This document shows, piece after piece, positions 6,168 through 64,000 of a stretch of 64,000 bases of DNA. The translations under genes and the position numbers were made by a program. The stretch spans positions 1,488,001 through 1,552,000 of the forward strand of contig CM048850.1 of assembly GCA_026545225.1 (NCBI GenBank), read 5' to 3'. The notes under the pieces are model-generated. The model did not search any database. It saw only the letters and a list, made by a program, of their open reading frames with translations, and was not told where the DNA came from. Within the stretch, counting starts at the first letter, position 1. Every line of letters begins with the position of its first letter. Origin of the DNA: Cornus controversa (Eukaryota > Streptophyta > Magnoliopsida > Cornales > Cornaceae).

Positions 6168-6406
6168 ATTTATAAGAAGAAGTCTCGGCCAGCCCAACCA
6201 TGGGCTTGGGCGATCGATCCCCCCTAGGGTGGGCGATTGATCGCCCACTTGCTGGTGGGTCTCTCCTAAAAAATGCATGGGGCGATCGATCCCCCTTGGC
6301 TGGGGCGATCGATCCCCCCCCCCTGGATGCCTGTTGGACCCTCCATCGCCCAAGGTCGACCGAGACTTGATATTTTTGAGTCTCCGTCGCCCAAGGTCGA
6401 CCGAGA
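6168..6406 (-). promoter_or_regulatory. Candidate internal promoter upstream of D ORF3: palindrome cluster plus TATA box
   Basis: On the - strand the order is two direct repeats of TCGCCCAAGGTCGACCGAGA-type sequence (seen on the + strand at 6346-6365 and 6387-6406, 41 bp apart), four copies of GCGATCGATC or GGGCGATTGATCGCCC (6210-6315), and then a TATA-like CTTATAAAT (6168-6176), with ORF3 starting at 5735. The arrangement recurs in E and C and, with different flanks, in A. Promoter function is an inference. Confidence 0.5.
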
Positions 6407-10972: not shown

Positions 10973-11907
10973 TTATTCGTGTGTGAGTGTGACTCAAAAA
11001 GTAAATCAATTAAAAATTTCCACATTTCGCAATAGAACGAATTTCTTGCAGAATAGGGCTATCGAAAGGGGTATCGTACCTCAGGGATTATGGTCTGATG
11101 AGTTGGAATACTGAATTAATTCTAATTAAATTTAGAAGAAAAGAATTCTGATTTTTAAACAAATTAAAAAGATAAAATAAAATAAATCAAAGTAAACAAG
11201 ATAGTGAAGATAATAGGAGAGAAATCTAGGGTGTTTGACTTCACCACTAACTCCATAATCAATGGTCAATTGAATCAACTATGGGGAATTACATCATGCA
11301 TAAGTGGTGTCAGTGGCTACAAGCTCACCTTCATCCGTCAACAAGATAACATATGATTAAGGCTAAGCCATAGACTATCTTTGATTGGCATGGGCCATCT
11401 GCCTAACTACTCTAATCTAGGGTGCAGTATGGTTCATCTTCTCTAGGCATAATCCATCAAAGCTCTTAACAATATATTCAGTGATTACCATTGTGTAATA
11501 ATCTCTCTCATGATCACAGAAAACAAGAGAGATTGAGTTCAATAATAACAACTAAATATCTAAGACAAGATAAGAAATCATTGAGATTGAATTTACAAGA
11601 CTTTTATTGCTCAATTCTATAATAAGAATTCTCTAAATTACACAATCTATGCATTTATATAAAGGTTCCCAATAATTAAAACAATCAAACCATTGATGCT
11701 TTGTTAGGGCTACATTAAAACCCTAGTGGATGAACTAGTCGCTCATGGTAGAAGAAGAAGCTTCAACTGTTGAGGAAGAAGGCATCATCTTCATGAATTA
11801 AGCGTCTGACTTCGTTCTGCAATGGCTCTGCAAATATGTTTTTGTTCTCTTCTGAGCCCTCTCAGACTCTCCAATCTCTGTGTTCTTCTCCCTGTTCTCG
11901 CTTCAAT
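10973..11907 (-). repeat. 5' LTR of element D, first piece
   Basis: It aligns with the inner end of the 3' LTR of D (1361 onward) for about 935 bp. After it comes sequence of element E. The remaining outer part of the same LTR lies at 18495-18827. Confidence 0.85.
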
Positions 11908-12088: not shown

Positions 12089-12345
12089 ATTTATAGCATA
12101 AACTTTCGGCCAGCCCACCCATGGGCTTGGGTGATCGATCCCCCCTAGGGTGGGCAATCGATCGCCCACCTGCTGGTGGGGGTCTTCAAGAAATAACATG
12201 GGGCAATCGATCCCCCTTGGCTGGGGCGATCAATCCCCCCCCGGATGCCTGTTGGACCCTCCATCGCCCAAGGTCGACCGGGACTTGATATTTTTGAGTC
12301 TCCATCGCCCAAGGTCGACTGAGAGCACGATTTTTCACCCGTCTT
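12089..12345 (-). promoter_or_regulatory. Candidate internal promoter of element E: palindromes plus TATA box
   Basis: This has the same layout as 6168-6406 in D: two direct repeats containing CGCCCAAGGTCGAC, GATCGATC-type palindromes including GGGCAATCGATCGCCC (12152-12167), and the TATA-like CTATAAAT on the - strand at 12089-12096. The ORF3 it would serve is no longer present in E. Confidence 0.45.
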
Positions 12346-16976: not shown

Positions 16977-18494
16977 TTATTCGTGTGTGAGTGTGACTCA
17001 AAAAGTATATCAATTAAAATTTTCCACACTTCGCAATAGAACGAATTCCTTGCAGAATAGGGCTATCGAAAGGGGTATCGTACCTCAGGGATTATGGTCT
17101 AATGAGTTGGAATACAGAACTAATTCTAATTAAATTTATAAGAAAAAAATTCTGATTTTTAAACTAAATAAAAAGATAAAATAAAATAAATCAAAGCAAA
17201 CAAGATAGTGAAGATAATAGGAGAGAAATCTAGGGTGTTTAACTCCACCACTAACTCCACAATCAATGGTCAATTGAATCAACTATAGGGGAATTACATC
17301 ATGCATAAGTGGTGTCGGTGGCTACAAGCTCACCTTCATCTGTCAAGAAGATAACATATGATTAAGGCTAAGTCATGGACTATCTTTGATTGGCATGGGC
17401 CATCTGCCTAACTACTCTAATCTAGGGTGCAGTATGGTTCATCTTCTCTAGGCATAATCCATCAAAGCTCTTAACAATATATTCAGTGATTACCATTGTG
17501 TAATAATCTCTCTCATGATCACAGAAAATAAGAGAGATTGAGTTCAATAATAACAACTAAATATCTAAGACAAGATAAGAAATCATTGAGATTGAATTTA
17601 CAAGACTTTTATTGCTCAATTCTATAATAAGAATCATCTAAATTACACAATCTATGCATTTATATAAAGGTCCTCAATAATTAAAACAATCAAACCATTG
17701 ATGCTTTGTTAGGGCTACATCAAAACCCTAGTGGATGAACTAGCCGCTCATGGTAGAAGAAGAAGCTTCAACTGTTGAGGAAGAAGGCATCATCTTCATG
17801 AATTATGCGTATGACTTTGTTCTCCAATGGCTCTGCAAATATGTTTCTGTTCTCTTCTGAGCCCTCTCAGACTCTCCAATCTCTGTGTTCTTCTCCCTGT
17901 TCTCGCTTCAATTCAACCTCTAAGTCTTCACTTTATTCCCCAAGAGAATACACCAAAGTCCTAATCCAATTAGGAATAAATTAGGGTTTCCCGCAGCACT
18001 AATCAGGTGGGTTTTTCCTGCTGACTTCGGCCCAACTTTTGACCCACTAGAAGTCCGATTTACGGACTTTTCGTGAAATACAAAAGTGTGCAGAATCAAA
18101 TTTCGTTCAATCTCGCATGAAAATAATGTCGATTTGAGGCTCAGAAATAAGACTTCTGGTCCATTTTCCAAAATGGGATTAAGACTGTATTATGCGCAGA
18201 TTTGGGCTTCAGGCCCGAAACCTTCTTAAGTAGTTGTAATTCTCTTGGACCTCTTTCTTGGGCTGATTTGAGTTGAAATAAATGGTTGAATAATTCTCCT
18301 TGATGTAGTCTTCATCTAACCATCTTGGATGTCTTCTTTAAAAGCCCAAAAGCTTAGTTTTAACTGAAATAATCATTAAGGCCCTGAAAATACATAAAAT
18401 ACTAAAACAAAGTAAAATCACAAAATAGTCTACCACTAAGAGAATAAAATACATAAGTTAAGAGGCTAGAATGCGTAACATTCAATGCCTATCA
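16977..18494 (-). repeat. 5' LTR of element E
   Basis: A full 1518-bp LTR homologous to 1361-2864 and 24430-25940. The inner end reads TTATTCGTGTGTGAG where B1 has TGATTCG. The outer end is …ATGCCTATCA at 18494. A TATA-like TTTATATA lies on the - strand at 17661-17668, about 830 bp into the LTR. Confidence 0.9.
17661..17668 (-). promoter_or_regulatory. Possible LTR TATA box, element E
   Basis: TTTATATA on the - strand is followed by the conserved ATGCATAGATTGTG segment. The same pair is seen in the C LTR (25247-25254) and the D 5' LTR piece. Assignment as the LTR promoter is an inference. Confidence 0.4.
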
Positions 18495-18827
18495 GTTTTC
18501 CAAAACGGGTTTAAGACTGTATTATGCACAGATTTGGGCTTCAGGCCCGAAACCTTCTTAAGCAGCTGTAATTCTCTTGGACCTCTTCCTTGGGCTGAAT
18601 TGAGTTGAAATAAATGGTTGAATGGTTCCCTTTTGATGTAGGCTTCATCCAACCATCTTGGATGTCTTCTTTAAAAGCCAAAAAGCTTGGTTTTAATTGA
18701 ATTAATCATTAAGGCCCTGAAAATACAGAAAATACTAAAACAAAGTGAAATCACAAAATAATCTATCACTAAGAGAATAAAATACATAAGTTAAGAGGTT
18801 AGAATGCGTAACATTCAACGCCTATCA
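18495..18827 (-). repeat. 5' LTR of element D, outer piece
   Basis: A 333-bp stretch that repeats the outer third of the LTR (compare 18162-18494). It ends CCTATCA at 18827, followed by the CTTGG target duplication. Together with 10973-11907 it brackets element E. Confidence 0.85.
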
Positions 18828-18832
18828 CTTGG
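18828..18832. repeat. Target site duplication CTTGG, right copy (element D)
   Basis: It matches 1356-1360. The C coding sequence resumes immediately after it (ATGCTTGCATAAATTGTAGG in C; compare the - strand at 14630). Confidence 0.9.
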
Positions 18833-21147: not shown

Positions 21148-21272
21148 CTCGGTCAACCTTGGGCGATGGAGACTCAAAAATTACAAGTCTCGGTCAACCT
21201 TGGGTGATAGAGGGTCAAACAATCGATCGCCTAGGCCCATGGAGGGGCTGCCCGAAATTTTGCTCTATATAT
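21148..21272 (+). promoter_or_regulatory. Candidate internal promoter of element C: palindrome remnant plus TATA box
   Basis: Two direct repeats containing CGGTCAACCTTGGG (21149 and 21194 regions) are followed by AATCGATCGCC (21222-21232) and a TATA-like CTATATAT at 21265-21272, with ORF3 starting at 21687. The layout and spacing (about 415 bases from TATA to ORF3) match D. The palindromes are more eroded than in D and E. Confidence 0.45.
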
Positions 21273-28845: not shown

Positions 28846-31342
28846 CACCCCCAAACTTACATATTGCTAGTCCCTTAGCAATAGAATAAAACAAAACTAA
28901 AACAAAGAAACTACTAAACACTAAGTAAACTACCCAACTCCACTTTCGTGGGAGAAACGATTGCATTTAGCATATGCAACAAGCCTTTAAACCCCTAGGT
29001 TCCCCCTAGTGGACGAGTATAGTCTCGTGAGGGTTTCCAGAAATGTTACCCACAAACATTCAAAACTCTGTTTCAACATTAATTCAAGAAGAAGATTACA
29101 ATATATAGTTACAAAGTTGCATTCAAGAATAGTTTCAAACTTTCAAATTCTATAATTCAAAGCAATGGTCCCCATACATAATTCACATCAACATATCTCA
29201 AAATAATCAACTCTAGCTCCCTCGTGTAAAGTGAACTAGCAATCATCTTATGTAGCATAACCAAGTTCTGAATATATTAAGGCACATACCCCTTCAACTC
29301 ACTAGCTCCCCTTATTGAACTCATACTTCCCAACATGCATACATGACTTTTTCATCATTTTTTTCTTTTCATTCCCTTTTTTTTTTCATTGCTTTATTGG
29401 TTGTGCAATGTCTTGATCTATTGAGCTTTCTGAAAGATCCATGTAGCAAGCTTTCAGTCAGTGACTCCCAAACCAGATGGCTTTAGGGCACTAGGCTTTA
29501 AGATACCCTGGAGACCTAATTACTTGAATCAGTCAGGCTACAAATCAAGACAACCAATGCTCATCTTTTCTCACCCTTTCACTTTTGACGCGAACACTCC
29601 GTGCTTCCTGAGGCATAGAGGCCCGGTTACTCATAAAAAGGATCAAATTGATTTGCTTATTCATCACATTCTTTTTTTTTTTTTTTTTCTTCTTTTTTTT
29701 CCTTTTCATTGAAGTCAAGTAAAACACATTATCGGTACTCATTCTCAAGAAATACTAATTAATATCAAGCATATGTAACTCAATAACTCAAAACATAGGT
29801 TTATACCCCACAAGATTATGCTAGTGTGTCTGTGCATGTAAGGAAACTAAAATTAATCACTTCAAAACATGTTATTGCAAACCATGATTCAAACCACTTA
29901 ATTTAAATCACAGTTTTCAAAATTTTCAAACATACTCAAAAATTGCAAGTTAAGCACCTACATAAGGTATTAATCCCTTGAATGATGTCAAAACATTCTA
30001 TCTAAAAATAAAACAAAATAAAATAAAAAACAAACTAAGAAAATAAAATAAAATAAAATCCTAATACAAAAATAATTTCACACAAATTTCCCCCCATAAT
30101 GCAATAAAGCACAAAAATAGGCATCGCCTCACCCCCAAACTTAAACTGTACATTGTCCTCAATGTACTACCAATCGAGGCATAGAGAAGAGTAAGAACGA
30201 TATTACCAAGAATCCGAAGAATAGTGGCAAGAAAATAGAGCAAACCAATAGTATGAAGGCAATGCAAGCACACCCCCAAACTTGGATGTTTCAACCTGTC
30301 AAAACAAACCACTATACCCCAAAAACCAAGTGAAATAGTATGGGTGAAAATAAATATGAAATAGAATTTTTTTTTTTTACTGAAGAAAGAAAGAAAGAAA
30401 AAAACAATATGAAAAATAAAATAAAGAAGAAAAGAAAAAAAAATAAAAATACAAAAAAATAGTTACCTCCGAAAAAATCAAGGAGAAGGTGGTGCCGAAG
30501 CATCTAAGTCATGGCCGGAATGGAGCACCAAAATCAACCAACTAACCCTCAGTTAATGTGCAATGTCCTCCCCCAAACTTGTAGCACAAAACCTCTCAAA
30601 GAAATCCAACCAATTTTTCAAACAAAGTCTACTTCCTTGTGAAGAAGAAACTTGAGAAAATTGATCATTTAATGAGGATGGAGAAAAATAGATTGGAATG
30701 GATGATGATGGTGATGAATGATGATGATCAAGTAGTGTTATGAAATATTTTGAGAGTGTATTTTGATGTTGGAGAGGCACAAAATGCATCAAAACATGTA
30801 AATCTGAGTGGGGGGCAAGTAAAAGGCTTTGAAATTGAAGCAAAACGGATCAGCTGGGGCTTCCTAGGCTGGGCGATCGATCCCCCTAGGGCTGGGCGAT
30901 CGATCGCCCAGCTGGTTGGTCTCCCAGCTTGGGGAAAAATGGGGGCGATCGATCCCCCCTTGCTTGGGCGATCGATCCCCCCGGCTGATGCCTGTTTCGC
31001 CCTCCATCGCCCAAGGTCGACCGGGACGTGTATTTTTGGAGTCTCCATCGCCCAAGGTCGACCGAGAGCTCATTTTTTCACCCATCTTGAGTCTAAATAC
31101 CTCGGTACACCTCTTGGCATCCTCCGGAAGCAACTTATACATCAAAAACTTAAAAGAAAAAACATTAAAACGCAACTAGAATTGAAAAGAAACTAAAGAA
31201 AAACATAAACTAAAAATAAAAATAAAAATAAAATAATAAATAATAAAAATAAAAGAAAACTAAAGAAATTAAAGGATAGAAATACATACAAATCCTACAA
31301 TTTAACGTCCGTAGGCGACGATCATCAACTTCAATTGAAAGT
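28846..31342 (-). other. B1 3' non-coding region: polypurine tract, extra polypurine motifs, stem-loops, palindromes
   Basis: There is no gene. From the LTR inward: the polypurine tract (28846-28858), the stem-loop TTGCTA…TAGCAA (28864-28881), a T-rich tract (about 29670-29705), CACCCCCAAACTT at 30130-30142 and 30271-30283, the stem-loop TACATTGTCCTCAATGTA (30149-30166) and a fourth polypurine-like copy, CTCCCCCAAACTT, at 30568-30580. At about 30870-31070 there is a palindrome cluster including a perfect GGGCGATCGATCGCCC (30894-30909), plus two CGCCCAAGGTCGACCG repeats. ORF3 is absent, and no TATA box is found at the conserved place. Confidence 0.8.
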
Positions 31343-35700: not shown

Positions 35701-38700
35701 TGTCACGCCCCGACTTTCGACACCCGATTAGGAACAGAGGAGGTGGGGTGTGAACTGGTGAAATCACACATCAAAGCCTCAGTCACCGGAGATTCCATCA
35801 CCGTGCCGAGGTCTCAACCCTTAAGTCAATGCGGAAGCGTAAAACATATATACTCTAAATCATCAATTTATATCTCAACACTCTCATAATCCTTATACAA
35901 GTTTTTGCACAATGTATAAACACTAACTCACATTTCTAATGTCCATAGACCCATATAAAAATAAGTTACATAAATGTAATTGCAATCTCATATCAATATA
36001 ATCCACATGCCACATGCCGGCATGGATAGCCAACTATGCAATTCATAACACTATATCCAAAAAGAAATTTTAAAGTATTATTTCAAATCACTATAGCACT
36101 CTAAGCCTCATCCTTCGGTGATGCTTTATCTGAAAAAAAATTTGTATATAGGGGGTGAGTACCACTGCGGCTCAGTAGGAATGATCCACCCAACTCTACT
36201 CTAATTCAAGAGGCCATGCATGGATGCATATGAAATCATTACCTTTCAACATGACAGATATCCATGCTTTTTACCCATAAACAATCACGTTTTTTAAATC
36301 ATGCGTGATGCTTCACATTTCAATGCATATACATTTATATATATCAATTTGGACAAGTCACAATTAAAATATATAACTCACACCACATAAATCCAGAAAT
36401 CAATTCAGTGGGGACTAGCTTATCACACCACATCCATAGTAAGGGTCTCTTCGGCACCCAAACTCTGCTTACGCTTTATCGGGTTGCTAACCCAAAGGGA
36501 GCGCCTCCTCTTGACCAAGTTTTGGGTCTTTCACCCTAGGGACCATTTACTCATCTTAATTCTCAATGTTGTCACGCCCCAAAAATCTCGCTTTTCACAT
36601 AGTGCACATAATCACATCAATACACTTCTCCACACAATGCAATGCATTTTATCAAATCAATGCATTTTCCGTCTCAACTCAAGATTGTCACAATGTCATT
36701 CACTCACTTCATGAAAAATCATTATGCTTATGCATTTTCAACAAAATCACATATTTCATGCACAGCTCTACATTGAAAATCATATTTTCATATTTTCATC
36801 AATGAACACAATTTTCATTAAAAGTATTCATAATCTCAATATCACATATGCAGCATATATAAGTTCTAACCAACATGTTAGACATATACATATGAATGAA
36901 TCAATATAAATACACAGGCCCCTAAACTCACAAAATCACAATCCTATATTCATGTCACAGATAAGAGACCTATAGAATCAAAGTAAGGATGAGTCTAGCA
37001 CCCCTATCTCGGTTTGGAGTGAGAACTCCAAAAATCTCTAATTCCCGAGAAGGTTGAGAAGATCGCCTTCTACTGCTTTGCCGGAATTGTGTTACACGTC
37101 TTCATGTACCCAAAGCTTATGGGAAGTCGAATTTTTTAATCCAAGTCTCAAGCTCAACTCATCGTCAAATCAATTAAAATAGTCAAAAATTTTAAATCAA
37201 TTCCAGTTAAAATCCACTTCAAACTTTCAAGAGTCAAACACATCTTATACCCATTTCCTTGTTTTTGGGCTTATCCATTTTATTGATCCATTTGATTTTC
37301 ATCCCAAACAATAAAATAATTAATTGTCCAAGCTTAACGATACCCAGTAACCAACTATCATCTAGCCCAAATCAAACACCAAGCTAGCCCAAGCAGTGAA
37401 CCCACTTTATTGTCTATTCAAAACCAACAACCCAAACCCAATTCATATATCTAGGCCCATCACACAACCAACCCTTGTTGCCACCATGCAGCCAAAACAC
37501 TCTCAATGAGCACCTCTTTGAACTGCCGCCAAGGAGATCCCACTCCCATGGCTGCCTAGCTATGCACAACACAACCTAAACTCACCATCACCAAGCTACC
37601 AAGTAACAGGGACCAAATGGGTAGATCCACCAACCAAGCATTGGCTACCGAAAACCAAACCTTCACCCATGGATCTTATTCCTCAAGCTCAATGACTCAC
37701 GACTACATGAGTCACTCACAGTGGTGAACTCAAGCCAAAACCATTGCAGCCATGGCAACTACTATGCATTACCAAGAACCAAAAATCCATCTCAGCTGAA
37801 GCCCACTTCAACTAACCAACTAACCCAAGTTTCCTTCATGAACCCACAAGAATTCCACCATTGGCCCCTCCATGCTCCCTCACCAGCGGTATTACTTGTG
37901 TAGGCAATTACCATGCTAATCCATCATTTTCTTCTTCTAAAACGAACCACCACCGAGCTCAAAACAGCCCACCAATGAGACCCATATGGCCGGTCCAAGA
38001 CCACCCACCTCGCTGCCCTTAAATGTCGGCACCATTTGAGACTCCAAGGCCAAACCCATGTCCAAGCCAGCTCACCACTACCGCCGAACCTCTATGAGCC
38101 AATAACCATATCTATGTGTTCTAACCGAAATATCAAAGCAGACCCACCATGAACACCAAGCCGTCCATCATCAACACGTACTAGCCACCACCACACCCTT
38201 ACTGAAACAGCCACAGCATGACCACGATTGCCACCACTGTTTGAACAGAACCCCATGAGAAGTCCCAGTTGAACCTCCACCGTCGCCCACTGCACCAACC
38301 GAGAATCCACTTGTTATGGCCACCTGAAACCCAACCATCTTCAACCGTCGGGCAGCACCACCAGTACAACAGCCACTCACCACCACTGAGTTGCCAGAAC
38401 CAGCTCCTCTCTCTCTCTCTGTTCTCTTCTTTCTCTCTCTAAAAATTCCTTTCCACTCTCTAGTTCTCGGTTCTGTCTATTCTCTTCTCTCTTCTTCTTC
38501 TTCTTCTGTTTTTTTTTCTTTTCTCTTCTTTCCTCTTTCGCTATCTCTCAGCTGACCATCACACTTTGGTCTCTTCTTATCTTTTCAGCCGAGACACCTT
38601 TCTCCTTTATCAAATAAATATCTAGTACCTTTTTCTTATATCATTCTACACCACATATCCCCCGGCCAACTACAACCATATGAAAAACATATTTTATATA

Positions 38701-42966: not shown

Positions 42967-45900
42967 TGTAGTGCCCCAACTTTCGACACCCGGTTAGGAG
43001 CAGAGGAGGTGGGGTGTGAACTGGTGAAATCACACATCAAAGCCTCAATCACCGGAGATTCCATCACCGTGCCAAGGTCTCAACCCTTAAGTCAATGCGG
43101 AAGCGTAAAATATACATACTCTAAATCATCAATTTATATCTCAATACTCTCATAATCCTTATACAAGTTTTTGCACAATGTATAAACACTAACTCACATT
43201 TCTAATGTCCATGGACCCATATAAAAACAAGTTACATAAATGTAATTGCAATCTCATATCAATATAATCCACATGCCACATGCCAGCATGGATAGCCAAC
43301 TATGCAATTCATAACACTATATCCAAAAAGAAATTTTAAAGTATTCTTTCAAATCACTATAGCACTCTAAGCCTCATCCTCCAGTGATGCTTTATCTAAA
43401 AAAAAAATTGTATATAGGGGGTGAGCACCACTGCGGCTTAGTAGGAATGATCCACCCCAACTCTACTCTAATTCAGGCGGCCATGCATGGATGCATATGA
43501 AATCATTACCTTTCTACATAACAGATATCCATGCTTTTTACCCATAAACAATCACATTTTTCAAATCATGTGTGATGCTTCACATTTCAATGCATATACA
43601 TTTATATATATCAAATTGGACAAGTCACAATTAAAATATATAACTCACACCACATAAATCTGGAAATCAATTCAATAGGGACTAGGTTATCACACCACAT
43701 CCATAGTAAGGGTCTCTTCAATACCCAAACTCTGCTTACGCTTTATCGAGTTGCTAACCCAAAAGGAGCGCCTCCTCTTGGCCAAGTTTTGGGTCTTTCA
43801 CCCTAGGGACCATTCCCTCATCTTAATTCTCAATGTTGTCACGCCCCAAAAACATCGTTTTTCACATAGTGCGCATAATCACATCAATACACTTATCCAC
43901 ACAATGCAATGCATTTTATCAAATCAATGCATTTTCTATCTCAACTCAAGATTGTCACAATGTCATTCACCCATTTCATAAAAAATCATCATGCTTATGC
44001 ATTTTCAATAAAATCACATATTTCATGCACAGCTCTACATTAAAAATCATATTTTCATATTTTCATCAATGAACACAATTTTCATTAAAAGTATTCATAA
44101 TCTCAATATCACATATGCAGCATATATAAGTTCTACCCAACATGTTAGACATATACATATGAATGACTAACCTTTTTATATACAATATAAATGCACAGGT
44201 CCCTAAACTCACAAAATCACAATCCTATCTTTTATGTCATAGATAAGAGACCTATGGACTCAAAGTAAGGATGAGTCTAGCACCCCTACCTCGGTTTCGA
44301 GTGAGAACTCCAAAAATCTCTAATTCCTGAGAAGGCTGAGAAGATCGCCTTCTCCTGCTTTGCCAGAATTGTGCTACACGTCTTCATGTACCCAAAACTT
44401 ATGGGAAGTCAAATTTTTTAATCCAAGTCTCAAACTCAACTCATCTTCAAGTCAATTGAAACAGTCCAAAATTTTAAATTAATTCCTGTTAAAATCCACT
44501 TCAAATTTTCAAGCGTTAAACACATCTTATACCCATTTCCTTGTTTTTGGGCTTATCCATTTTATTGATCCATTTGATTTTCATCCCAAACAATAAAATA
44601 ATTAATTGTCCAAGCCTAACGATACCCAGTAACCAACTATCATCCAGCCCAAATCAAACACCAAGCTAGCCCAAGCAGTGAACCCACTTTATTGTCTATT
44701 CAAAACCAACAACCCAAACCCAATTCATATATCTAGGCCCATCACACAACCAACCCTTGTTGCCACCATGCACTCGAAACACTCTCAATGAGCACCTCTT
44801 CGAACTACCGCCAAGGAGATCCCACTCCCATGGCTGCCTAGCTATGCACAACACAACCTAAACTCACTATCACCAAGCTGCCAAGTAACAGGGACTAAAT
44901 GAGTAGATCCACCAACCAAGCATTGGCTGCCCAAAGCCAAACCTTCACCCATAGATCTTATTCTCCAAGCTCAATGACTCACGACTACATGAGTCACTCA
45001 CAGTGGTGAACTCAAGCCAAAACCATTGCAGCCATGGCAGCTGCTATGCATTACCAAGAACCGAAAATCCATCTCAGCCGAAACCCACTTCAACTAAACA
45101 ACTAACCCAAGTTTCTTTCGTGAACCCACAAGAATTCCACCAATGGCCCCTCCATGCTCCCTCACCAGTGGTACTACTTGTGTAGGCAACTACCATGCTA
45201 ATCCATCATTTTCTTCTTCTAAAATGAACACCACCGACCTCAAAATAGCCTACCAAGGAGACCCATATGGCCGGTCCAAGACCACCCACCTCACTGCCCT
45301 TAAATGTCGGCACCATTTGAGACTCCAAGGCCGAACCCATGTCCAAGCCAGCTCACCACTACCGCCAAACCTCTATGAGCCAACAACCATATCTATGAGT
45401 TCTAACCAAAATATCAAAGCAGACCCACCTTGAACACCAAGCCGTCCATCATCAACATGTACTAGGCACCACCACACCCTCACTGAAACAGCCATAGCCT
45501 AACCATAGTCGCCACCATCATCCGAATAGAACCCCGTGAGAAGGCCCAATTGAGCCTCTACCATTGCCCACTGCACCAGCCGAGAATCCACTTGTTATAG
45601 CCACCTAAAACCCAACCATCTTCAACCATCGGGCAGCACCACCACTAAAACAGCCACTCACCACCACCGAGTTGCCAGAACCAGCTCCTCTCTCTCTTTG
45701 TGTTCTCTTCTTTCTCTCTCTAAAAATTCCTTTCCTCTCTCTAGTTCTCGGTTCTCTCTATTCTCTTATTTCTTCTTCTTCTTCTTCTTCTTCTTTTTTT
45801 TTCTTTTCTCTTCTTTCCTCTTTCCCTATCTCTCAGCTGACCATCACACTTTGGTCTCTTCTTATCTTTTCAGCCGAGACACCTTTCTCCTTTATCGTAT

Positions 45901-46054
45901 CTATATCCTCCACCTCTATATAAATGTATATATAATTTCATATATATATATATATATTTTATTTTATTTTGCATTTTTAAATTTAATTAATTCAAAAAAA
46001 ATTAACCCGGTCTAAAAATAATCTGAAATCGGTCAAAATAACTCAGTCCTTACA
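42967..46054 (-). repeat. 5' LTR of F
   Basis: TGTAGTGCCCC…CAGTCCTTACA, aligned over almost its whole length with 35701-39173. The CT-rich tract is at 45685-45825. The TA-rich part is much shorter than in the other LTR. Confidence 0.88.
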
Positions 46055-48947: not shown

Positions 48948-49085
48948 TTTAACCACCTTGGAGTATGTGAGTTACTCGGTGAGGGATCCCAAAGCCATTT
49001 AACCACCTTGGAGTATGTGATTTATTAGGTGATATATTCTGAAATTATCTAACCACCTTGGAGTATGTGATTTACTCGGTGATGT
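48948..49085. repeat. Three 50-bp direct repeats at the insertion point of A
   Basis: TTTAACCACCTTGGAGTATG or TCTAACCACCTTGGAGTATG starts at 48948, 48998 and 49048, exactly 50 bp apart. Element A begins inside the third copy. The five bases before A are GATGT, and their partner, if any, lies outside the window. Confidence 0.9.
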
Positions 49086-50509
49086 TGATGTGGTCGGAAC
49101 TAAATTATATTGCAAGCTTAATTTTGCCCTTTTTATCAAAATATAATTTAACCACTCGCAAGAGCACGAATCTTTGTAGATAAGGTTCTATATAGAGGGT
49201 ATCGATCCCACGAGGACTAGTCGTTAATTGTCATAGAGAAAGATTAATTCTACTTTAATTCTAAAAAAAATAGGTTTTTGGTTTTGTGTTTAAGGCTATT
49301 GCATAAAGGAAATGACAATAAAATTAAAGAGTAAAGTTGGGAGAGAGAACTAGGGTTGGTTTCCACCACTAGCCATTCACATGTTCATAAGTGTAGCAAG
49401 CAAGGGATTCATTAATTAAATGCCTAACAATGTCATTAGGCTTGTGACCTCAATGACATATCAAAAGATCAATGTGTGTGCTAACCTATCATAATCCATC
49501 TTCAACAAGCATAGCTCTTCAACCTAACTAACTACCTACTTACTCTACTCTCTAAGTGAACACTACATGCATCCAAACTACCTTGTCTTGGCATGGTCTA
49601 TACAAACTAGCATCACACATTCATTTAAACACCATTATCTAGCCATCATTTGCACTTCTTGTGGAATATGCAAATGTTGTGCATTCAAGTGACAAAACCT
49701 ACTCTAAGACAAGAATAAATTCCATATCAAATGAATATATAAAAGAAATGTATTTGTGTACATAATCACTAGGCTAAATAATCAACATTTAATTACAAGT
49801 CCCAAGAGCTACAAAGATGAACAAGTTTACATGGCTAGGGGTTGAAACCAACACCCTAGTAGAAGAGTTAGTTGCTCATGGTTGCCTTGCACCCTTCCAT
49901 TGATGAAGAGAATGAAGCTTCTTGGTCTGGTTCAGCCCTTCCTCTTCCTCTCCCGAAGGTCTCTCCTTAAGTCCTCTGATGTCTATGTTGAGAGATATAT
50001 GAGATATGTGGCTTTTTGGTGCTTTTTGTATGCTTTTTGGCTCCTTTTGGGCCCACCATATATATATATATCATTATATATATCTCTTGTATCAAGAAGG
50101 CTCCCCAAAAGTCTTGTTCAAGTCAGACAATCCCCCTAAGTCGTGCAAAAAGGGGGATTTTGTTGCAAGTGGGAGAGCAGGTGAGCAAGTGGCCAAGTGG
50201 GCTCTGCAGCAGTTCGATTGATCGAAATTTCATTTCGATTGATCGAGATTTCGATCAATCGAAATGAGATTTCGATCAATCGAAATTTCGATTGATCGAA
50301 ATCCACATTTCGATCAATCGAAATGCCTTGGTAACAGCTTCTGATTTCATCTCTTGACTGCAGAAAGCTTCCAACTTTGCTCCATTTACTCCAATACCTG
50401 CAATACATCAAAAACACAAAAATACCGTAAACATATCTCGGTAAACGCAAAAACGGAACTAACATATGCAATAAAGAGGGTTCAAATGCATAGAATTGAA
50501 CACTTATCA
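49086..50509 (-). repeat. 3' LTR of element A
   Basis: 1424 bp, TGATGTGGTCGGAAC…CACTTATCA on the + strand. On the element strand it starts TGATAAGTGTTC. It contains six TTCGAT-NN-ATCGAA palindromes (50213-50322, one with a mismatched end) and a TATA-rich stretch (about 50058-50094) some 420-450 bp from the LTR start, the likely promoter region. Confidence 0.93.
50213..50322. repeat. Palindrome array TTCGAT-NN-ATCGAA in the A LTR
   Basis: Copies in both orientations (TTCGATTGATCGAA and TTCGATCAATCGAA) start at 50213, 50235, 50250, 50271, 50287 and 50309. The partner LTR has five (61749-61837). They lie upstream of the TATA-rich stretch on the element strand, as an enhancer would. Confidence 0.9.
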
Positions 50510-50545
50510 CACCCCCAAACTTACATATTGCTAGTCCCTTAGCAA
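50510..50545 (-). promoter_or_regulatory. Polypurine tract and stem-loop of element A
   Basis: AAGTTTGGGGGTG on the - strand (50510-50522) abuts the LTR start TGATAAG. Upstream of it lies TTGCTA-AGGGAC-TAGCAA (50528-50545), identical to the stem-loop of the more distant C and D elements. Confidence 0.9.
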
Positions 50546-52317
50546 TACAATATTACAAAAATGAAATCAACTATCTTATACAAAAGTTTAATCATGCTCA
50601 GTCATCAACTAGATAAAGGGCGCTCATCCATTCATTTCACAATTGGCAAATGCAACAAGTATTACAGAACTATGTGGTCATTAGCAAAAATGGACTTTCA
50701 CAAGCTATAAATGAACGACAGTCCCCACATGCTGGCCAGCCCGAACAACTATAACAATTCCAACCCCAAAATCCTCTTTGAAAAGTGAACATGCATTCTA
50801 ACATGTGGCTTTTGTCATATTTGGAGAAGAAAACGAACAAATCTGTTTTTAAGAGAAAAACTCATTGAAAATGCTCAACCCGGCTGTTTCATTATCACAA
50901 AACATTCATGATTGCTCATGTGCGGATGACCGTTCAATGCTTAGCTCTTTTTGCTTTCTTGTAAGCCCATGTAGCGGCATTGGGCCAATGACTCCCAAAC
51001 CAATTGGTTTTAGGGCATTAGGCGAAGAAGCACCCCTCGGACTTAATAACCGAGCTTACAAGGCGATGAGCGTAAGCAAGCCATCCGCTTATTACTGCTC
51101 AACCTTACACACTTTTACACGAATATTTCCTGCTTTGAGGCATAGAAATCCGGTTTATTTAGTGAGAAGGCTTATTGCATATTTTTCTCTTTTTATTTCT
51201 TCTTTTTTTTTTTTTTACAACAACCGGAAGAACTTATTCTTTAAGCTGTTCAGATAAAAACAGAAATTTTCAAAAACTCTCCCTCAGACTTATCCCCCAC
51301 AATTTAAACTGCATGTGTGCGAATTTGTGCGGTTAAGGACAAATTTAGGGCAAGAATTGTACGTGCTCGAGTTTGGACAATAATGTAGACCGCTCTAGCC
51401 TACTATAAAGCTTGCAAAAGTGCGGGTATTTACAATGTTAAAGTTCTTAACTACCTGCTGCATTTACCTCGGACATTTATTCGAATGATCTTCCTTTACA
51501 AAGCAAGACATCATAGCAAGCATGCAAAAATATCAAAGAAAAACTGCTCTACAATGACACTCAATATAATGACTGAACATTGCATGCATATGCAAGCGGT
51601 ATAGCATACCGCACCCCCAAACTTATATGCAACATTGTCCTCAATGTTTGGACAAGAAGAACAAGGAAAGAAGTTACCGGGATGGTAGAAGGCGAGAAAA
51701 AATGGTATTCCACTGCGGCGGTCATCCTGTAAATAAGAAAAACCTGCACAGAATACCAACTGGATACCACGAGCATTAAAAGGAACAAAAAGTAGATAAA
51801 TAGAACAAAATGAAATAATTACGCACAAACAGACAATGCCAATATCACTGTATATCTAATGGTCCGAACTGGTGTTTCCCAATTGTCTAAAAGGTCTATG
51901 CGACAAGATATTGACTATCCAGGCGCGCTAACGTATAGCACGCAAATGGGCTGCCTTTCTTTATTACCGCCATACTGTGTTGAAGCAATCTCAACAGTAT
52001 TGGGAATTAAAACCAGGCGGTAATAAACGGAAATCATCAACTGAATCGCATATAGCAATTAGACAAGTGGTACTACATACATAGTCAAAGTATAGAGAAC
52101 AGATAAATTGACGGAAAGCAAAAAGGAAAGACAGAAAAGATAAGACATGTCATAAAAGAAAATATAAATGTATTCCATAAAGATGAAAATGCGTTTCAGT
52201 ACAAAGGGTACATGTAGGTGGAATACGCAAAGAGAAACTAACATGGCCAACATGGCCTATCAAAAATAAAGAAAGAAAAATACAGAAAGTAAAGCATAAA
52301 AGGTGAATAAAGTGCAG
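50546..52317 (-). other. Element A 3' non-coding region
   Basis: There is no gene. It has a second polypurine-like motif (CACCCCCAAACTT on the + strand, 51612-51624) next to the stem-loop ACATTG-TCCT-CAATGT (51632-51647), and a T-rich tract near 51205. The whole stretch recurs at 62061-63833 with about 0.5% difference. Confidence 0.8.
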
Positions 52318-53523
52318 CTACTCGAGGGCAGGTGGTGGTGGTGGTGGCTCGGTGGGAGCAAAAGTTGAGGTGGAGGCTCGACCTGCGAACAGGAACTGCA
52401 GATCCTGCCGGAAGGCTCGGAACTCATCTAAGATCGCTCTCTGGCCCTGCGTCCGAATACCCGCCAGCTGACTCTGCGTCACCTGGACGTGCTCGTCAAA
52501 ACCCTGTTGGAGCCGCTCTACGTCAGCCGCCAGGCAGGAATAGCCTGTCGCTAAGATATCATGCCGCTCTGCAGCGACATCCATCTCCTCCTCCTCCATC
52601 TCCTCGTCCTCCGCCTCAGCCCCTGCTGGCTCTCCCTCATCCATCTCCACCGGGGCATCCATATCTACATCGTCTGGTGGATCACCCTGATGGTCCTGTC
52701 GCTCTAAGTGTCGCCTCACCCGATCCCACTGAGTAGATGTGAAGCGGGTGGGCGGTGCCAACTGAATGTCAGTCCGACTGACTGGTATACTGGCACTGCT
52801 GAGAAAAGCGGCGGTCAGGAATGGAAAGGGAAGCTGCCAACTCGCTGCTCTCTTCTTCCTCTTGTTGACAAGGCCATCCCAAACTTTGTGCATCTGCCCC
52901 CAGATAAGCGATGGGACAGAAAACCAAGTGCCCGTATGGAAAGCATAGAGGCAACGGAGGAGGTCGCCCCTGTGCTCTGCCACATGCTGCAGCGGACACG
53001 CGTTCTTGAGGAGAACGGTGTCCAGGAACCAATATCTGCTCGGGCACATTGATTTGGACGTGCAGTTGCGACGGGGTGTGGTAAACTCCCCACCACACAT
53101 GTCCATCACCATCGAGAAGAGCGTAGTGTCGGCTGGGAGCGCGGCTCTATAAAGTGGCTGACCGTCCGGGCCAACCATATCCGTCGGCTGCTGGTGAGGA
53201 ATGCCGAGCATATGAGCAATCCGGCTCGGCGTAATCGTGATCGTGACAGTGGCCACAGTAGTCTCGAGTGTATCTGGCGCTGTGCAGGAGTAGGTCATAT
53301 GCTCGTAAAAGACCTGCACTAGGCGCTCGTGTGCCAAGTCTGTGGGAGGCACACATAGCTGGTCGAGGCGACGCCTCCTGAGCTCGGCAACGGTCCAAGC
53401 TGTGTCGGGACGCCCCTCGAACTCGGCTAAGTCGAAAACCTGCTCCGGGCTGCACTTCCGAGATCGGAAGGCTCGCCCGGGCACGTCGCGAACAGCACCG
53501 GCGGCGTTCTTCACTCTCGCCAT
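52318..53523 (-). CDS. Element A ORF3: plant transposon-protein-like product in the Athila third-gene position
   Basis: 401 codons, MARVKNAAGAVRDVPGRAFR to …PPPPPPALE. Residues 1-25 are basic. Residues about 28-235 form the conserved region (FDLAEFEGRPDTAWTVAEL, RLVQVFYEHM, RIAHMLGIP, WFLDTVLLKNACPLQ, LRCLYAFHTGTWFSVPSLIW). Residues about 285-330 are very acidic (EAEDEEMEEEEMD). Residues 335-390 have heptad-like spacing with many Gln and Leu (probable coiled coil), before a Pro-rich tail. There is no signal peptide, membrane segment or furin-like site, so the 'envelope-like' label often given to this position is not supported. Domain order matches the C and D remnants. Function unknown; nuclear or particle-associated roles are guesses. 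Confidence 0.82.
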   Translation of the reverse strand: MARVKNAAGAVRDVPGRAFRSRKCSPEQVFDLAEFEGRPDTAWTVAELRRRRLDQLCVPPTDLAHERLVQVFYEHMTYSCTAPDTLETTVATVTITITPSRIAHMLGIPHQQPTDMVGPDGQPLYRAALPADTTLFSMVMDMCGGEFTTPRRNCTSKSMCPSRYWFLDTVLLKNACPLQHVAEHRGDLLRCLYAFHTGTWFSVPSLIWGQMHKVWDGLVNKRKKRAASWQLPFPFLTAAFLSSASIPVSRTDIQLAPPTRFTSTQWDRVRRHLERQDHQGDPPDDVDMDAPVEMDEGEPAGAEAEDEEMEEEEMDVAAERHDILATGYSCLAADVERLQQGFDEHVQVTQSQLAGIRTQGQRAILDEFRAFRQDLQFLFAGRASTSTFAPTEPPPPPPALE

Positions 53524-54701
53524 GGCCTCGGAACAGTCTGCACTGGATTCAAAAGGTACGTAAATGAAAGATGAATAAGAAGAAAGTGAAACTACTACTA
53601 AACTAAAAGAATTAAAAATAAAAATGAAGTCCTAGTCCATGGTACTGACAAAATTGCAAAAAGCTGCACTCGAAGAGGCAATGTGAACGGGCGCAACCGA
53701 AACGAAGGTGCCGCGGTTATACACCGAACACTAAGCGTTTGAAATGAAGAAAATGCCAAATCCCACTCCTGCTTGAATTCCTACCCCCCCCCGAAACCCA
53801 CAAGAACTGGATTTGGACATCGCAATCGCAACTATCCACCCCAACATGATCTAACTATGTTTATTCCGCTGTAAAACTATCAAAAATGGCGAGAGAATAA
53901 ACAGAAAGTAGCCATGCATCACTTACCTTGTGAGGAAGAAGATGAACGGCTCAACCGAAGAAAACTCCACGCGCAGCCGCGAAGAGAAGATCGCGCAGAT
54001 GCTTGCGGCGGATCGGACTGCGTCGGATGGCGGCGGATGATCGGGAATGGAAGATCGAGTGCTCGGGAGTGCTTGGAGAAGGCTTGGATCGCACAGAGGG
54101 AGAGAAGAAGTCGGATGGTCTTTTAAAATGGGAGGGAAGCCCAATGGTTTAAATAGATTTTTGGCTCACGTGCAGGCTCCGCGTGCATTTCGATTGATCG
54201 AAATGTGCATTTCGATCAATCGAAACTAACTTCGATGGATCGAGCTTGTCTCTTCGATCAATCGAACATTCCTTCCCTAAATCACATTTTTACTTCGATC
54301 AATCGAACATTTAATTGATGCAATCGAACTTTTAGTTCGATCAATCGAAATCCCATGTCGATCAATCGAAAGTTTCGATCGACCGAAGACCCATCGAAGT
54401 GCAATCGAAGAATATCACCTCTTGGGACTTTGGACTTGGCAAATCTCTGCAATTTTTCGATCAATCGAAACCAAAGTTTCGATCAATCGAAATTTTCGAT
54501 TGATCGAAATCTTGGTTTCGATCAATCGAAATGCTCAAAAACAGTCAGTTTAAAATATGCTTCAGGGACTTGGATATTTGGGAATTAGATACTCCATTGC
54601 TTAGATACAAACCTACTTTGGATAAAAGGGACACCATGGAAGCTTGATAGCGACCATGGCTTCGCCACCTTACACGTCTATGGCGCGACGTCCGGATCGG
54701 C
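53524..54701 (-). promoter_or_regulatory. Spacer between pol and ORF3 of A with palindrome cluster and TATA-like box
   Basis: There is no gene in these 1.2 kb. From upstream on the element strand there are about nine exact TTCGATYRATCGAA palindromes and one near copy (54189-54530), then a TATA-like CTATTTAAA (54148-54156), then ORF3 at 53523. The palindromes are of the same type as those in the A LTR. The arrangement mirrors D, E and C (6168-6406, 12089-12345, 21148-21272). A C-rich tract on the + strand near 53785-53796 is unexplained. Confidence 0.55.
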
Positions 54702-55667
54702 TCACGAGTCAAAATACACGGGATCCGTCAAAGTGACGACATCCACGTATTCGGTGGTGACTTGGTCATCCACGCACACTTTTAAGCGCTGCCCGTTTAC
54801 TTTGAACATCGATCCATCTTTCAAGTCCTTCAATTCCACCACTCCGTGGGGGGCGACGGAATTAACCAAAAATGGACCATCCCAACGGGAGCGAAGTTTT
54901 CCGGGAAACAAATGGAGGCGCGAGTTGTACAACCAAACTTTTTGGCCCGGCGAAAATGTTTTGACTCGAATATTACGATCATGAAAGGCTTTGGACCTTG
55001 CCTTATAGACTTTCGCATTCTCATACGCGTCATGTCGCAATTCTTCCAATTCATTTAATTGAAGCTTTCGATTAGAGCCGGCCTTTTTCATGTCAAAATT
55101 GAAGGTCTTGGTGGCCCACATAGCTTTATGCTCCAATTCAACCGGAAGATGGCACGCCTTGCCATAAACTAACCGATAAGGTGACATTCCAATGGGAGTT
55201 TTATATGCGGTTCGGTATGCCCATAATGCGTCGTTTAGTCGCAATGACCAATCCTTCCGGTCAGGCCGAACAGTTTTCTGAAGAATGTTCTTAATCTCCC
55301 TATTGGATACTTCTACTTGGCCACTAGTTTGAGGATGGTAGGGGGTGGCTACTTTGTGTGTGACAGAGTATTTGAGAAGCAAGGTTCGAAGGAACCGGTT
55401 ATAGAAATGCTTACCTCCGTCACTGATGATGGCCCGAGGCGTACCAAACCGGCTAAAAATGTTAGCTTGAATGAATTTAACCACGACTGCGTGATCATTG
55501 GTTTTGGTAGCAACGGCCTCTATCCACTTAGATACGTAGTCCACCGCCACAAGTATGTACTCATGACCAGTAGAGGGTGGAAATGGTCCCATGAAGTCAA
55601 TGCCCCACACATCAAATATTTCAATGACAAGAATAGGGTTAAGAGGCATCATGTCCTTCCGAGACAT
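54702..55667 (-). CDS. IN: Element A integrase region
   Basis: A 321-codon frame with the integrase catalytic core: first Asp in WGIDFMGPF (residue about 26), second in [12 protein letters not shown] (about 84), Glu in [13 protein letters not shown] (about 120), with the usual HPQTSGQ between them. A C-terminal GPF-type module ([19 protein letters not shown]) and the tail [12 protein letters not shown] follow, ending [11 protein letters not shown]. There is no chromodomain, as expected for Athila. It inserts the cDNA into host DNA. It is the only integrase seen in the window. Confidence 0.9.
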
Positions 55668-55679
55668 CGCGCCGAGGCG

Positions 55680-60615: not shown

Positions 60616-60621
60616 AAATTT

Positions 60622-62024
60622 TGATGTGGTCGGAACTAAATTATATTGCAAACTTAATTTTGCCCTTTTTATCAAAATATAATTTAACCACTCGCAAGAG
60701 CACGAATCTTTGTAGATAAGGTTCTATATAGAGGGTATCGATCCCACGAGGACTAGTCGTTAATTGTCATAGAGAAAGATTAATTCTACTTTAATTCTAA
60801 AAAAAACAGGTTTTTGGTTTTGTGTTTAAGGCTATTGCATAAAGGAAATGACAATAAAATTAAAGAGTAAAGTTGGGAGAGAGAACTAGGGTTGGTTTCC
60901 ACCACTAGCCATTCACATGTTCATAAGTGTAGCAAGCAAGGGATTCATTAATTAAATGCCTAACAATGTCATTAGGCTTGTGACCTCAATGACATATCAA
61001 AAGATCAATGTGTGTGCTAACCTATCATAATCCATCTTCAACAAGCATAGCTCTTCAACCTAACTAACTACCTACTTACTCTACACTCTAAGTGAACACT
61101 ACATGCATCCAAACTACCTTGTCTTGGCATGGTCTATACAAACTAGCATCACACATTCATTTAAACACCATTATCTAGCCATCATTTGCACTTCTTGTGG
61201 AATATGCAAATGTTGTGCATTCAAGTGACAAAACCTACTCTAAGACAAGAATAAATTCCATATCAAATGAATATATAAAAGAAATGTATTTGTGTACATA
61301 ATCACTAGGCTAAATAATCAACATTTAATTACAAGTCCCAAGAGCTACAAAGATGAACAAGTTTACATGGCTAGGGGTTGAAACCAACACCCTAGTAGAA
61401 GAGTTAGTTGCTCATGGTTGCCTTGCACCCTTCCATTGATGAAGAGAATGAAGCTTCTTGGTCTGGTTCAGCCCTTCCTCTTCCTCTCCCGAAGGTCTCT
61501 CCTTAAGTCCTCTGATGTCTATGTTGAGAGATATATGAGATATGTGGCTTTTTGGTGCTTTTTGTATGCTTTTTGGCTCCTTTTGGGCCCACCATATATA
61601 TATATATCATTATATATATCTCTTGTATCAAGAAGGCTCCCCAAAAGTCTTGTTCAAGTCAGACAATCCCCCTAAGTCGTGCAAAAAGGGGGATTTTGTT
61701 GCAAGTGGGAGAGCAGGTGAGCAAGTGGCCAAGTGGGCTCTGCAGCAGTTCGATTGATCGAAATTTCATTTCGATTGATCGAGATTTCGATCAATCGAAA
61801 TTTCGATTGATCGAAATCCACATTTCGATCAATCGAAATGCCTTGGTAACAGCTTCTGATTTCATCTCTTGACTGCAGAAAGCTTCCAACTTTGCTCCAT
61901 TTACAACAATACCTGCAATACATCAAAAACACAAAAATACCGTAAACATATCTCGGTAAACGCAAAAATGGAACTAACATATGCAATAAAGAGGGTTCAA
62001 ATGCATAGAATTGAACACTTATCA
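60622..62024 (-). repeat. 5' LTR of element A (also abutting the A' interior)
   Basis: 1403 bp, about 99.5% identical by eye to 49086-50509. The length difference is one 21-bp palindrome-bearing unit. On its right comes a polypurine tract and the 3' region of a second element, so this LTR also serves as the 3' LTR of A'. Confidence 0.93.
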
Positions 62025-64000
62025 CACCCCCAAACTTACATATTGCTAGTCCCTTAGCAATACAATATTACAAAAATGAAATCAACTATCTTATACAAAA
62101 GTTTAATCATGCTCAGTCATCAACTAGATAAAGGGCGCTCATCCATTCATTTCACAATTGGCAAATGCAACAAGTATTACAGAACTATGTGGTCATTAGC
62201 AAAAATGGACTTTCACAAGCTATAAATGAACGACAGTCCCCACATGCTGGCCAGCCCGAACAACTATAACAATTCCAACCCCAAAATCCTCTTTGAAAAG
62301 TGAACATGCATTCTAACGTGTGGCTTTTGTCATATTTGGAGAAGAAAACGAACAAATCTGTTTTTAAGAGAAAAACTCATTGAAAATGCTCAACCCGGCT
62401 GTTTCATTATCACAAAACATTCATGATTGCTCATGTGCGGATGACCGTGCAATGCTTAGCTCTTTTTGCTTTCTTGTGAGCCCATGTAGCGGCATTGGGC
62501 CAATGACTCCCAAACCAATTGGTTTTAGGGCATTAGGCGAAGAAGCACCCCTCGGACTTAATAACCGAGCTTACAAGGCGATGAGCGTAAGCAAGCCATC
62601 CGCTTATTACTGCTCAACCTTACACACTTTTACACGAATATTTCCTGCTTTGAGGCATAGAAATCCGGTTTATTTAGTGAGAAGGCTTATTGCATATTTT
62701 TCTCTTTTTATTTCTTCTTTTTTTTTTTTTTTACAACAACCGGAAGAACTTATTCTTTAAGCTGTTCAGATAAAAACAGAAATTTTCAAAAACTCTCCCT
62801 CAGACTTATCCCCCACAATTTAAACTGCATGTGTGCGAATTTGTGCGGTTAAGGACAAATTTAGGGCAAGAATTGTACGTGCTCGAGTTTGGACAATAAT
62901 GTAGACCGCTCTAGCCTACTATAAAGCTTGCAAAAGTGCGGGTATTTACAATGTTAAAGTTCTTAACTACCTGCTGCACTTACCTCGGACATTTATTCGA
63001 ATGATCTTCCTTTACAAAGCAAGACATCATAGCAAGCATGCAAAAATATCAAAGAAAAACTGCTCTACAATGACACTCAATATAATGACTGAACATTGCA
63101 TGCATATGCAAGCGGTATAGCATACCGCACCCCCAAACTTATATGCAACATTGTCCTCAATGTTTGGACAAGAAGAACAAGGAAAGAAGTTACCGGGATG
63201 GCAGAAGGCGAGAAAAAATGGTATTCCACTGCGGCGGTCATCCTGTAAATAAGAAAAACCTGCACAGAATACCAACTGGATACCACGAGCATTAAAAGGA
63301 ACAAAAAGTAGATAAATAGAACAAAATGAAATAATTACGCACAAACAGACAATGCCAATATCACTGTATATCTAATGGTCCGAACTGGTGTTTCCCAATT
63401 GTCTAAGAGGTCTATGCGACAAGATATTGACTATCCAAGCGCGCTAACGTATAGCACGCAAATGGGCTGCCTTTCTTTATTACCGCCATACTGTGTTGAA
63501 GCAATCTCAACAGTATTGGGAATTAAAACCAGGCGGTAATAAACGGAAATCATCAACTGAATCGCATATAGCAATTAGACAAGTGGTACTACATACATAG
63601 TCAAAGTATAGAGAACAGATAAATTGACGGAAAGCAAAAAAGAAAGACAGAAAAGATAAGACATGTCATAAAAGAAAATATAAATGTATTCCATAAAGAT
63701 GAAAATGCGTTTCAGTACAAAGGGTACATGTAGGTGGAATACGCAAAGAGAAACTAACATGGCCAACATGGCCTATCAAAAATAAAGAAAGAAAAATACA
63801 GAAAGTAAAGCATAAAAGGTGAATAAAGTGCAGCTACTCGAGGGCAGGTGGTGGTGGTGGTGGCTCGGTGGGAGCAGAAATGGAGGTGGAGGCTCGACCT
63901 GCGAACAGGAACTGCAGATCCTGCCGGAAGGCTCGGAACTCATCTAAGATCGCTCTCTGGCCCTGCGTCCGAATACCCGCCAGCTGACTCTGCGTCACCT
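62025..64000 (-). mobile_element. A': second Athila copy in tandem with A, cut by the window end
   Basis: It repeats 50510-52483 with about ten substitutions: polypurine tract (62025-62037), stem-loop (62043-62060), second polypurine motif (63128-63140), stem-loop (63148-63163) and the C-terminal 55 codons of ORF3 (63834-64000, on the - strand, ending LE like ORF3 of A). No target duplication or foreign DNA separates it from the shared LTR. Confidence 0.92.
63834..64000 (-). CDS. ORF3 of A', C-terminal part at the window edge
   Basis: Nearly identical to the C-terminus of the A ORF3 (predicted coiled coil, FRAFRQDLQFLF-type residues, poly-Pro tail), open up to the window end. Only a few residues near the end differ. 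Confidence 0.75.
   Translation of the reverse strand, partial: VTQSQLAGIRTQGQRAILDEFRAFRQDLQFLFAGRASTSISAPTEPPPPPPALE

Follow-up and report, generated by a model that had tools for sequence, protein, structure and literature searches.

A putative TATA promoter for the third open reading frame of Athila elements in Cornus controversa, with a palindrome array that may be shared with the LTR promoter in three lineages

Here we describe element A, a retrotransposon of the Athila kind on the minus strand of a 64,000-nucleotide (nt) stretch of the Cornus controversa genome (assembly GCA_026545225.1, contig CM048850.1, positions 1,488,001 to 1,552,000; hereafter the window), together with its relatives in the window and elsewhere in the genome. 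Between the end of pol and the third open reading frame (ORF3) these elements have a spacer, called here the slot, which holds an array of short palindromes. Judged from the sequence, ORF3 is rather probably served by a TATA promoter in this slot, whose array is shared with the promoter of the long terminal repeat (LTR) in three lineages, named A, 3 and 4. As for the parts of this proposal, a separate ORF3 promoter is well supported by the sequence and likely, and the module shared with the LTR is plausible. A first-pass annotation of the window had suggested that such a promoter is common to A and to elements D, E and C of a second group (group 2, which also includes B1), and that ORF3 is transcribed from it rather than reached by splicing alone. 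Coordinates of all these features are collected in Table 1.

Palindrome arrays in the slot

The slot of A had been annotated as holding about ten palindromes followed by a TATA-like box and ORF3, and all of this was confirmed: the array consists of nine exact TTCGATYRATCGAA units and three with one or two mismatches, and the box CTATTTAAA stands on the minus strand 32 nt beyond the last unit. CACGTG begins 18 nt past the last core. These palindromes are far beyond chance. Indeed, the 14-mer TTCGATYRATCGAA occurs 18 times in the window and 0 times in each of 100 first-order Markov sequences, and across the 772-Mb genome it is found 18,948 times, against 16 for the reversed pattern. No pairs of the palindrome were found in viral contigs.

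Copies elsewhere in the genome were sampled in several ways. Loci L001-L019 (except L005) come from listed palindrome matches or nearby places and are biased towards arrays. Ten of these palindrome-chosen loci could be read from integrase to ORF3 and, with the window, make up eleven A-type spans, all of them (11/11) with an array; neighbouring units of A-type slots mostly stand 16-17 or 20-22 nt apart, and each array-bearing slot holds 5 to 14 exact cores. Three further samples were chosen by ORF3; scoring covered 103 of 6214 and 150 of 5596 first-look ORF3 candidates. Among the 30 best of the 103 scored A-type ORF3 matches (one of them, L020, being the window's own copy), 29 show an array between pol and ORF3 followed by TATTTAAA, the exception (L033) having unrelated sequence as its upstream part. 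Ten group-2 copies (L051-L060), hand-picked from 150 scored for matches starting at residue 1, all keep at least one intact unit in the slot. Finally, ten loci (L061-L070) that match the diverged L018 ORF3 were hand-picked for few stops from 150 scored; nine carry arrays, with intact units in six (L061, L063, L064, L068, L069 and L070), units with one mismatch only in L062, L065 and L067, and none in L066. Since L068 and L070 are of the A type, eight of these ten loci belong to other lineages. The expectation that other copies keep palindromes in the same slot is thereby borne out, in 29/30 close A copies, 10/10 group-2 copies and 9/10 matches to the diverged ORF3.

In group 2 the earlier picture stands in part. 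The boxes CTTATAAAT, CTATAAAT and CTATATAT of D, E and C are where they had been placed, while C has lost three of its four palindromes. The core CGATYRATCG, taken to be common to A and group 2, is present in one of four units in D and one of four in B1, and E and C lack it altogether; GGATCGATCG is the form of most group-2 units. Outside the arrays, the spacers of A and group 2 share short matches only (best E-value 0.05), and for a single origin of the two kinds of array the cores are too short to decide. B1 had been said to lack a TATA-like box, which is correct, but its four palindromes are retained. The similarity of B1 to D ends just past the palindromes, so that the TATA box and ORF3 went as one block, and their joint loss is therefore no independent evidence that the box serves ORF3. 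In the same way, the boxes of D, E and C, which stand in related copies, do not count as three independent observations.

One motif in the slot and in the LTR

Nine of the 18 exact TTCGATYRATCGAA copies in the window, overlooked in the first-pass annotation, sit in the U3 (unique 3′) region of the two LTRs of A. The first U3 core of the 3′ LTR lies 189 nt after the LTR start. In eight distinct A-type LTRs (a listing of ten rows in which two LTRs were read twice), 189-190 nt separate the LTR start from the first core, and the first TATA-like hexamer comes 129-150 nt beyond the last exact core unit. Furthermore, the U3 array can be aligned with the first four units of the slot array so that order, orientation and spacing agree; this alignment scores 111, whereas 1000 shufflings of units and spacers gave at most 104. 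Observed/expected ratios of CpG exceed 1 in both arrays (3.48 in U3, 2.23 in the slot), against 0.49 over the whole LTR and 0.16 over the 260 nt that directly follow the U3 array. One LTR of A is 21 nt longer than the other, which corresponds to one palindrome unit recently gained or lost.

The core motif depends on the lineage: CGATYRATCG, CGATGCATCG in type 3 (L061, L063 and L069, with a damaged form in L062, L065 and L050) and CGATTGTGCGA, not a full palindrome, in type 4 (L064 and L067). Six stretches downstream of type-3 and type-4 elements were fetched without prior knowledge of their LTR motif. Four of them reached an LTR, and all four, assigned to their slot elements by distance and orientation, carry the motif type of the slot: type 3 in L071, L072 and L075 and type 4 in L073, with no exact unit of another type. 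The remaining two, L074 and L076, resemble none of these LTRs and tell nothing either way. The array of L073 begins about 188 nt after the LTR start and those of type 3 about 260-280 nt after it; in both types the array is followed, about 116-128 nt further on, by TATATA boxes. For the A type, slot and LTR match in 7/7 cases (the window, L006, L009, L011, L013, L014 and L015), which is not a blind test, because A-type LTRs were listed by having at least two A cores. In L008, L010 and L012, where the LTRs are not delimited, the further arrays are also of the A type, with no exact type-3 or type-4 units. A type-4-like array at L018:960-1300 (plus strand), with the nearby ORF3 on the other strand, is probably the slot of another element.

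TATA-like boxes and splice motifs

In the eleven A-type spans, TATTTAAA stands at a constant place after the array in nine, L012 and L013 having TATTTATTC or similar instead, and CACGTG is also present in 9/11. All 29 close copies that keep the array (one being the window's own) carry TATTTAAA. In group 2, represented by ten copies together with D, E and C, TATAWA or TATTTAA is found 10 or 12 nt after the anchor GGGCTGSCCRA in 12/13, some of these copies being nearly identical and thus not 13 independent trials. The letters of the box vary (TATAAA, TATATA, TATTTAA; the exception reads TATATTT), and such a box occurs in 2.8% of the window's 26-nt stretches.

Between the TATA box and the ATG of ORF3, a GGTAAGTG donor and a GTGCAG acceptor occur in all eleven A-type spans; beyond these spans, L023 lacks GGTAAGT and L068 reads GGTAAATG. 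In group 2, CAAAGTAAGT is present in all twelve copies that reach that far, and no acceptor at the usual distance was found by eye. Altogether, the proposal of a separate ORF3 promoter gains from the kept boxes of both groups, in group 2 at a fixed place despite changing letters, from the unvarying succession of array, CACGTG, TATA and pyrimidine-rich leader, from the splice motifs of that leader and from the precedent of Athila6A, while its opposition to splicing was drawn too sharply in view of those motifs, and splicing is probably used too.

A proposed mechanism and its alternatives

The positions of the arrays, the identity of the repeats, the matching of types in the elements read, the position of the TATA box and the splice motifs were directly observed. 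From these we infer a transcription start, the binding of a factor and the coupling of two promoters. ORF3 would have its own RNA polymerase II promoter in the spacer between pol and ORF3, composed, in this order, of an array of dyad-symmetric sites, often CACGTG, a TATA box and a pyrimidine-rich leader, which in A would close with a conserved intron immediately ahead of the ATG. For lineages A, 3 and 4, the slot array would be the same cis-module as that found upstream of the U3 TATA-like box, each lineage having its own motif, identical in both places. Since the same module would stand at both promoters, one DNA-binding factor would probably act on both, and it would couple the expression of ORF3 to genomic transcription.

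Several points weigh against this promoter reading. None of the six type-3 slots has a canonical TATA box (L061, L062, L063, L065 and L069 by pattern, L050 by eye), an A+T-rich stretch being found where it would stand, and only one of the two type-4 slots has one in place. The palindromes are not specific to ORF3, being present also in U3 and retained in B1, which has neither TATA box nor ORF3; since B1 keeps four good palindromes, they either serve some purpose or simply persist independently of ORF3. No array was found within the first 700 nt of any of the five group-2 LTRs of the window, which leaves group 2 outside the shared module. Moreover, exchange between slot and U3 arrays could match the types without any shared factor. 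Mean identity to A is 0.82 in the CACGTG/TATA block, 0.76 in the intron and 0.79 at third positions of ORF3, as compared with 0.87 in the spacer just after pol, 0.89 in the last unit and 0.67 in the 13 nt around the donor; the block is thus barely above the intron and the third positions and below the spacer after pol, and conservation alone cannot single out a promoter. Lastly, the symmetry of the outermost base pair of the units, considered below, is weak in nine diverged slots (42/71, Fisher p 0.08, relatedness ignored).

Other explanations of the arrays were considered. Unlikely, if the least so of the three rival readings, is that they are minisatellite-like repeats, spread by slippage and conversion, CpG-methylated, and mainly serving or attracting host silencing with no role for the element. 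The unit number does vary, from 5 to 14 exact cores in A-type slots and with one LTR of A one unit short; 44 of the 53 single mismatches in the eleven A-type slots are C-to-T or G-to-A at CpG; and palindromes in Sirevirus LTRs are reportedly hotspots of small interfering RNA (siRNA). Nevertheless, the slot position is kept across lineages whose ORF3 is 31-39% identical to that of A (group 2 and L018), the U3 position is kept in types A, 3 and 4, CpGs are retained inside the U3 array and lost around it, and B1, with LTRs 99.4% identical, keeps intact units. The CpG damage (window, L006 and L008-L016) falls mostly at unit positions 3 and 12, a strand-symmetric bias, relatedness ignored. Less probable again is that the arrays act as RNA hairpins, for stability, as an siRNA source or for packaging, and that the TATA boxes are incidental. 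The A slot folds at -152.5 kcal/mol (z -10.0, none of 100 shuffles as good) and the D slot with z -4.4, and symmetric arms with middle bases varying between lineages resemble stem and loop; yet strong folding is automatic for any palindrome array. Of 35 units from seven distinct U3 arrays, 30 have a symmetric outermost pair (C..G 16, T..A 14, T..G 2, C..A 3; Fisher p 3e-5, only a guide as the copies are related). On the element strand of the nine diverged slots, C..A outer pairs outnumber T..G (22 to 7), opposite to what G-U wobble would give. This pattern is mild evidence in favour of a DNA site, and hairpins would also leave unexplained the fixed TATA position and the place of the U3 array upstream of the LTR's TATA-like run.

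That ORF3 is made only by splicing of an LTR-driven transcript, with the TATA-like boxes unused, appears very improbable. The splice motifs ahead of the ATG in 11/11 A-type spans speak for it, as do the predicted acceptors for Athila and BAGY2 cited in PMC2829016, but donor and acceptor both lie downstream of the TATA box, so that a leader intron of an internal transcript fits too; furthermore, group 2 keeps its TATA box while the letters change, and Athila6A has a reported ENV (envelope) promoter (PMC4977677). A different extension of the promoter reading, which we consider unlikely, holds that the arrays are recognized in trans by a factor specific to each lineage, perhaps a product of the element itself, which would activate or un-silence both promoters. 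ORF3 would be the obvious candidate for such a factor and, often called envelope-like, would then be a regulator; motif and factor would co-evolve, like the VANC proteins of DNA transposons, and B1-like elements, with palindromes and without ORF3, would be served in trans.

The ORF3 protein

The family PF20167 is matched by 11 of 13 aligned ORF3 pieces, the match in A being below the curated cutoff, and neither DUF1985 nor DUF287 gave a Pfam match for ORF3 at E-values up to 10. The usual Kyte-Doolittle cutoff for a transmembrane segment is 1.6, and the maximum 19-residue means are 1.33 in A and 1.21 in C (partial), i.e., no strong transmembrane segment is present. A comparison with a large protein database left 0 of 7995 scored candidates at an E-value of 0.001 or less, and PDB sequences gave two matches, the best with an E-value of 0.19, which are not credible. 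A predicted structure was discarded for its mean pLDDT (predicted local distance difference test) of 35. As far as such sequence-based analyses go, they lend no support to an envelope role of ORF3, and none to DNA binding.

Layout of element A and of the window

The primer binding site CGGCAACGGCGCCA, which we take to be complementary to tRNA-Asp and of the Athila kind, is found beside LTR ends at 60602, 33433 and 16958. In A the integrase lies at the end of pol, which is the Ty3/gypsy order, and is followed by a third ORF in sense, as in Athila. By the type of its primer binding site and the order of pol and ORF3, A is a Ty3/gypsy Athila element. Among viral contigs, 32 pattern matches to its integrase were obtained, none of them confirmed as a relative.

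The repeat of A extends beyond the LTR into ORF3 (49082-52484 against 60618-64000, 98.8% identity), so that A probably belongs to a tandem row with shared LTRs. The next copy after A, read in L005, which continues the window, matches ORF3 residues 133-401 only, and the 9.5 kb read there contain no exact core unit. Among the neighbouring elements, similarity to the LTR of D (10975-11907) stops at 11907, where the spacer of E starts, which may mark the joining of two elements with a deletion. At an LTR edge between E and C lies a direct duplication of about 333 nt (18164-18497 and 18496-18830, 92.5% identical). A further repeat forms a direct pair of 2.9-kb copies (35707-38622 and 42973-45907, 94% identical).

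Table 1. Coordinates in the window of element A, its putative ORF3 promoter and the corresponding slots of group-2 elements
Feature	Position	Strand	Remarks
Element A		-
5′ LTR of A	60622..62024	-
U3 array in 5′ LTR of A	61749..61837	-	five units, four exact
End of pol region of A	54702..55679	-	integrase core (rve)
Slot array of A	54189..54530	-	TTCGATYRATCGAA units
TATA-like box of A	54148..54156	-	CTATTTAAA; putative ORF3 promoter
Predicted leader intron of A	53538..53926	-	AAG/GTAAGT ... TGCAG/; ends 14 nt before ATG
ORF3 of A	52318..53523	-	401 amino acids; PF20167 match below curated cutoff
U3 array in 3′ LTR of A	50213..50322	-	six units, five exact
AT-rich TATA-like run in 3′ LTR of A	50055..50089	-	about 130 nt downstream of U3 array
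3′ LTR of A	49086..50509	-
Slot of D	6207..6330	-	four GATCGATC-type palindromes
TATA-like box of D	6168..6176	-	CTTATAAAT
Slot of E	12128..12250	-	four palindromes, each C-to-T or G-to-A off D or B1
TATA-like box of E	12089..12096	-	CTATAAAT
Slot of C	21219..21232	+	one palindrome left
TATA-like box of C	21265..21272	+	CTATATAT
Slot of B1	30870..30985	-	four palindromes; without TATA-like box, without ORF3

Comparison with known systems

How the third ORF of plant elements is expressed is disputed, splicing, stop suppression and an internal promoter being the options; a 2020 review has env-like genes driven by the 5′ LTR (PMC7264820). Here the sequence points to a start site that can be tested, and the family concerned has several thousand first-look ORF3 candidates within a single genome; a matched motif specific to each lineage provides a handle for finding the binding factor. 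In the literature searched, with results examined in part, no report of a lineage-specific motif matched between LTR and ORF3 slot was found, and the motif strings were not found in the literature searched.

The closest precedent for the promoter is Athila6A of Arabidopsis, for which transcription starts, an intron and a promoter of the ENV ORF have been reported (PMC4977677). It is likewise an Athila element whose third ORF has an internal promoter, putative in our case; the available part of that paper mentions neither a palindrome array nor a connection of the internal promoter with the LTR. In turn, Grande, another plant LTR retrotransposon, has an accessory gene, gene23, that is driven by an internal promoter of its own (PMC7264820), but this gene runs antisense to gag-pol, and the part of the review at hand mentions no palindrome arrays there. 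The VANDAL transposons also have lineage-specific arrays of short motifs in their non-coding parts, which change together with the element-encoded protein VANC (PMC5735166). They are, however, DNA transposons, whose protein has been shown to act on the motif, whereas ORF3 of the present elements gave no Pfam match to DUF1985 or DUF287.

For the arrays, the nearest likeness is found in Sireviruses, whose palindromic LTR repeats start 200-400 bp after the junction of polypurine tract and LTR, upstream of the TATA box; the nine ENV-bearing members also have palindromic repeats upstream of ENV, with one motif per element, and an internal promoter could not be pinned down (PMC2829016). As in types A, 3 and 4 here, and unlike group 2, a single motif thus precedes both the TATA box of the LTR and the third ORF. 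Twelve of the 13 Sirevirus motifs have a CGG..CCG core, and the repeats were called Sirevirus-specific as against classic Ty1/copia (PMC2829016), whereas the cores found here are CGATYRATCG, CGATGCATCG and CGATTGTGCGA, in most lineages of the form CGAT..ATCG, and the TATA box ahead of ORF3 can be named. Moreover, Sireviruses are Ty1/copia elements and those of Cornus, by the position of the integrase, Ty3/gypsy Athila; the same layout of LTR and internal motif in two such distant groups suggests that it has arisen more than once. The present case would thus join, within Athila, an ENV promoter of the Athila6A type and palindromes of the Sirevirus type, to which it adds a matched switch of the motif across lineages.

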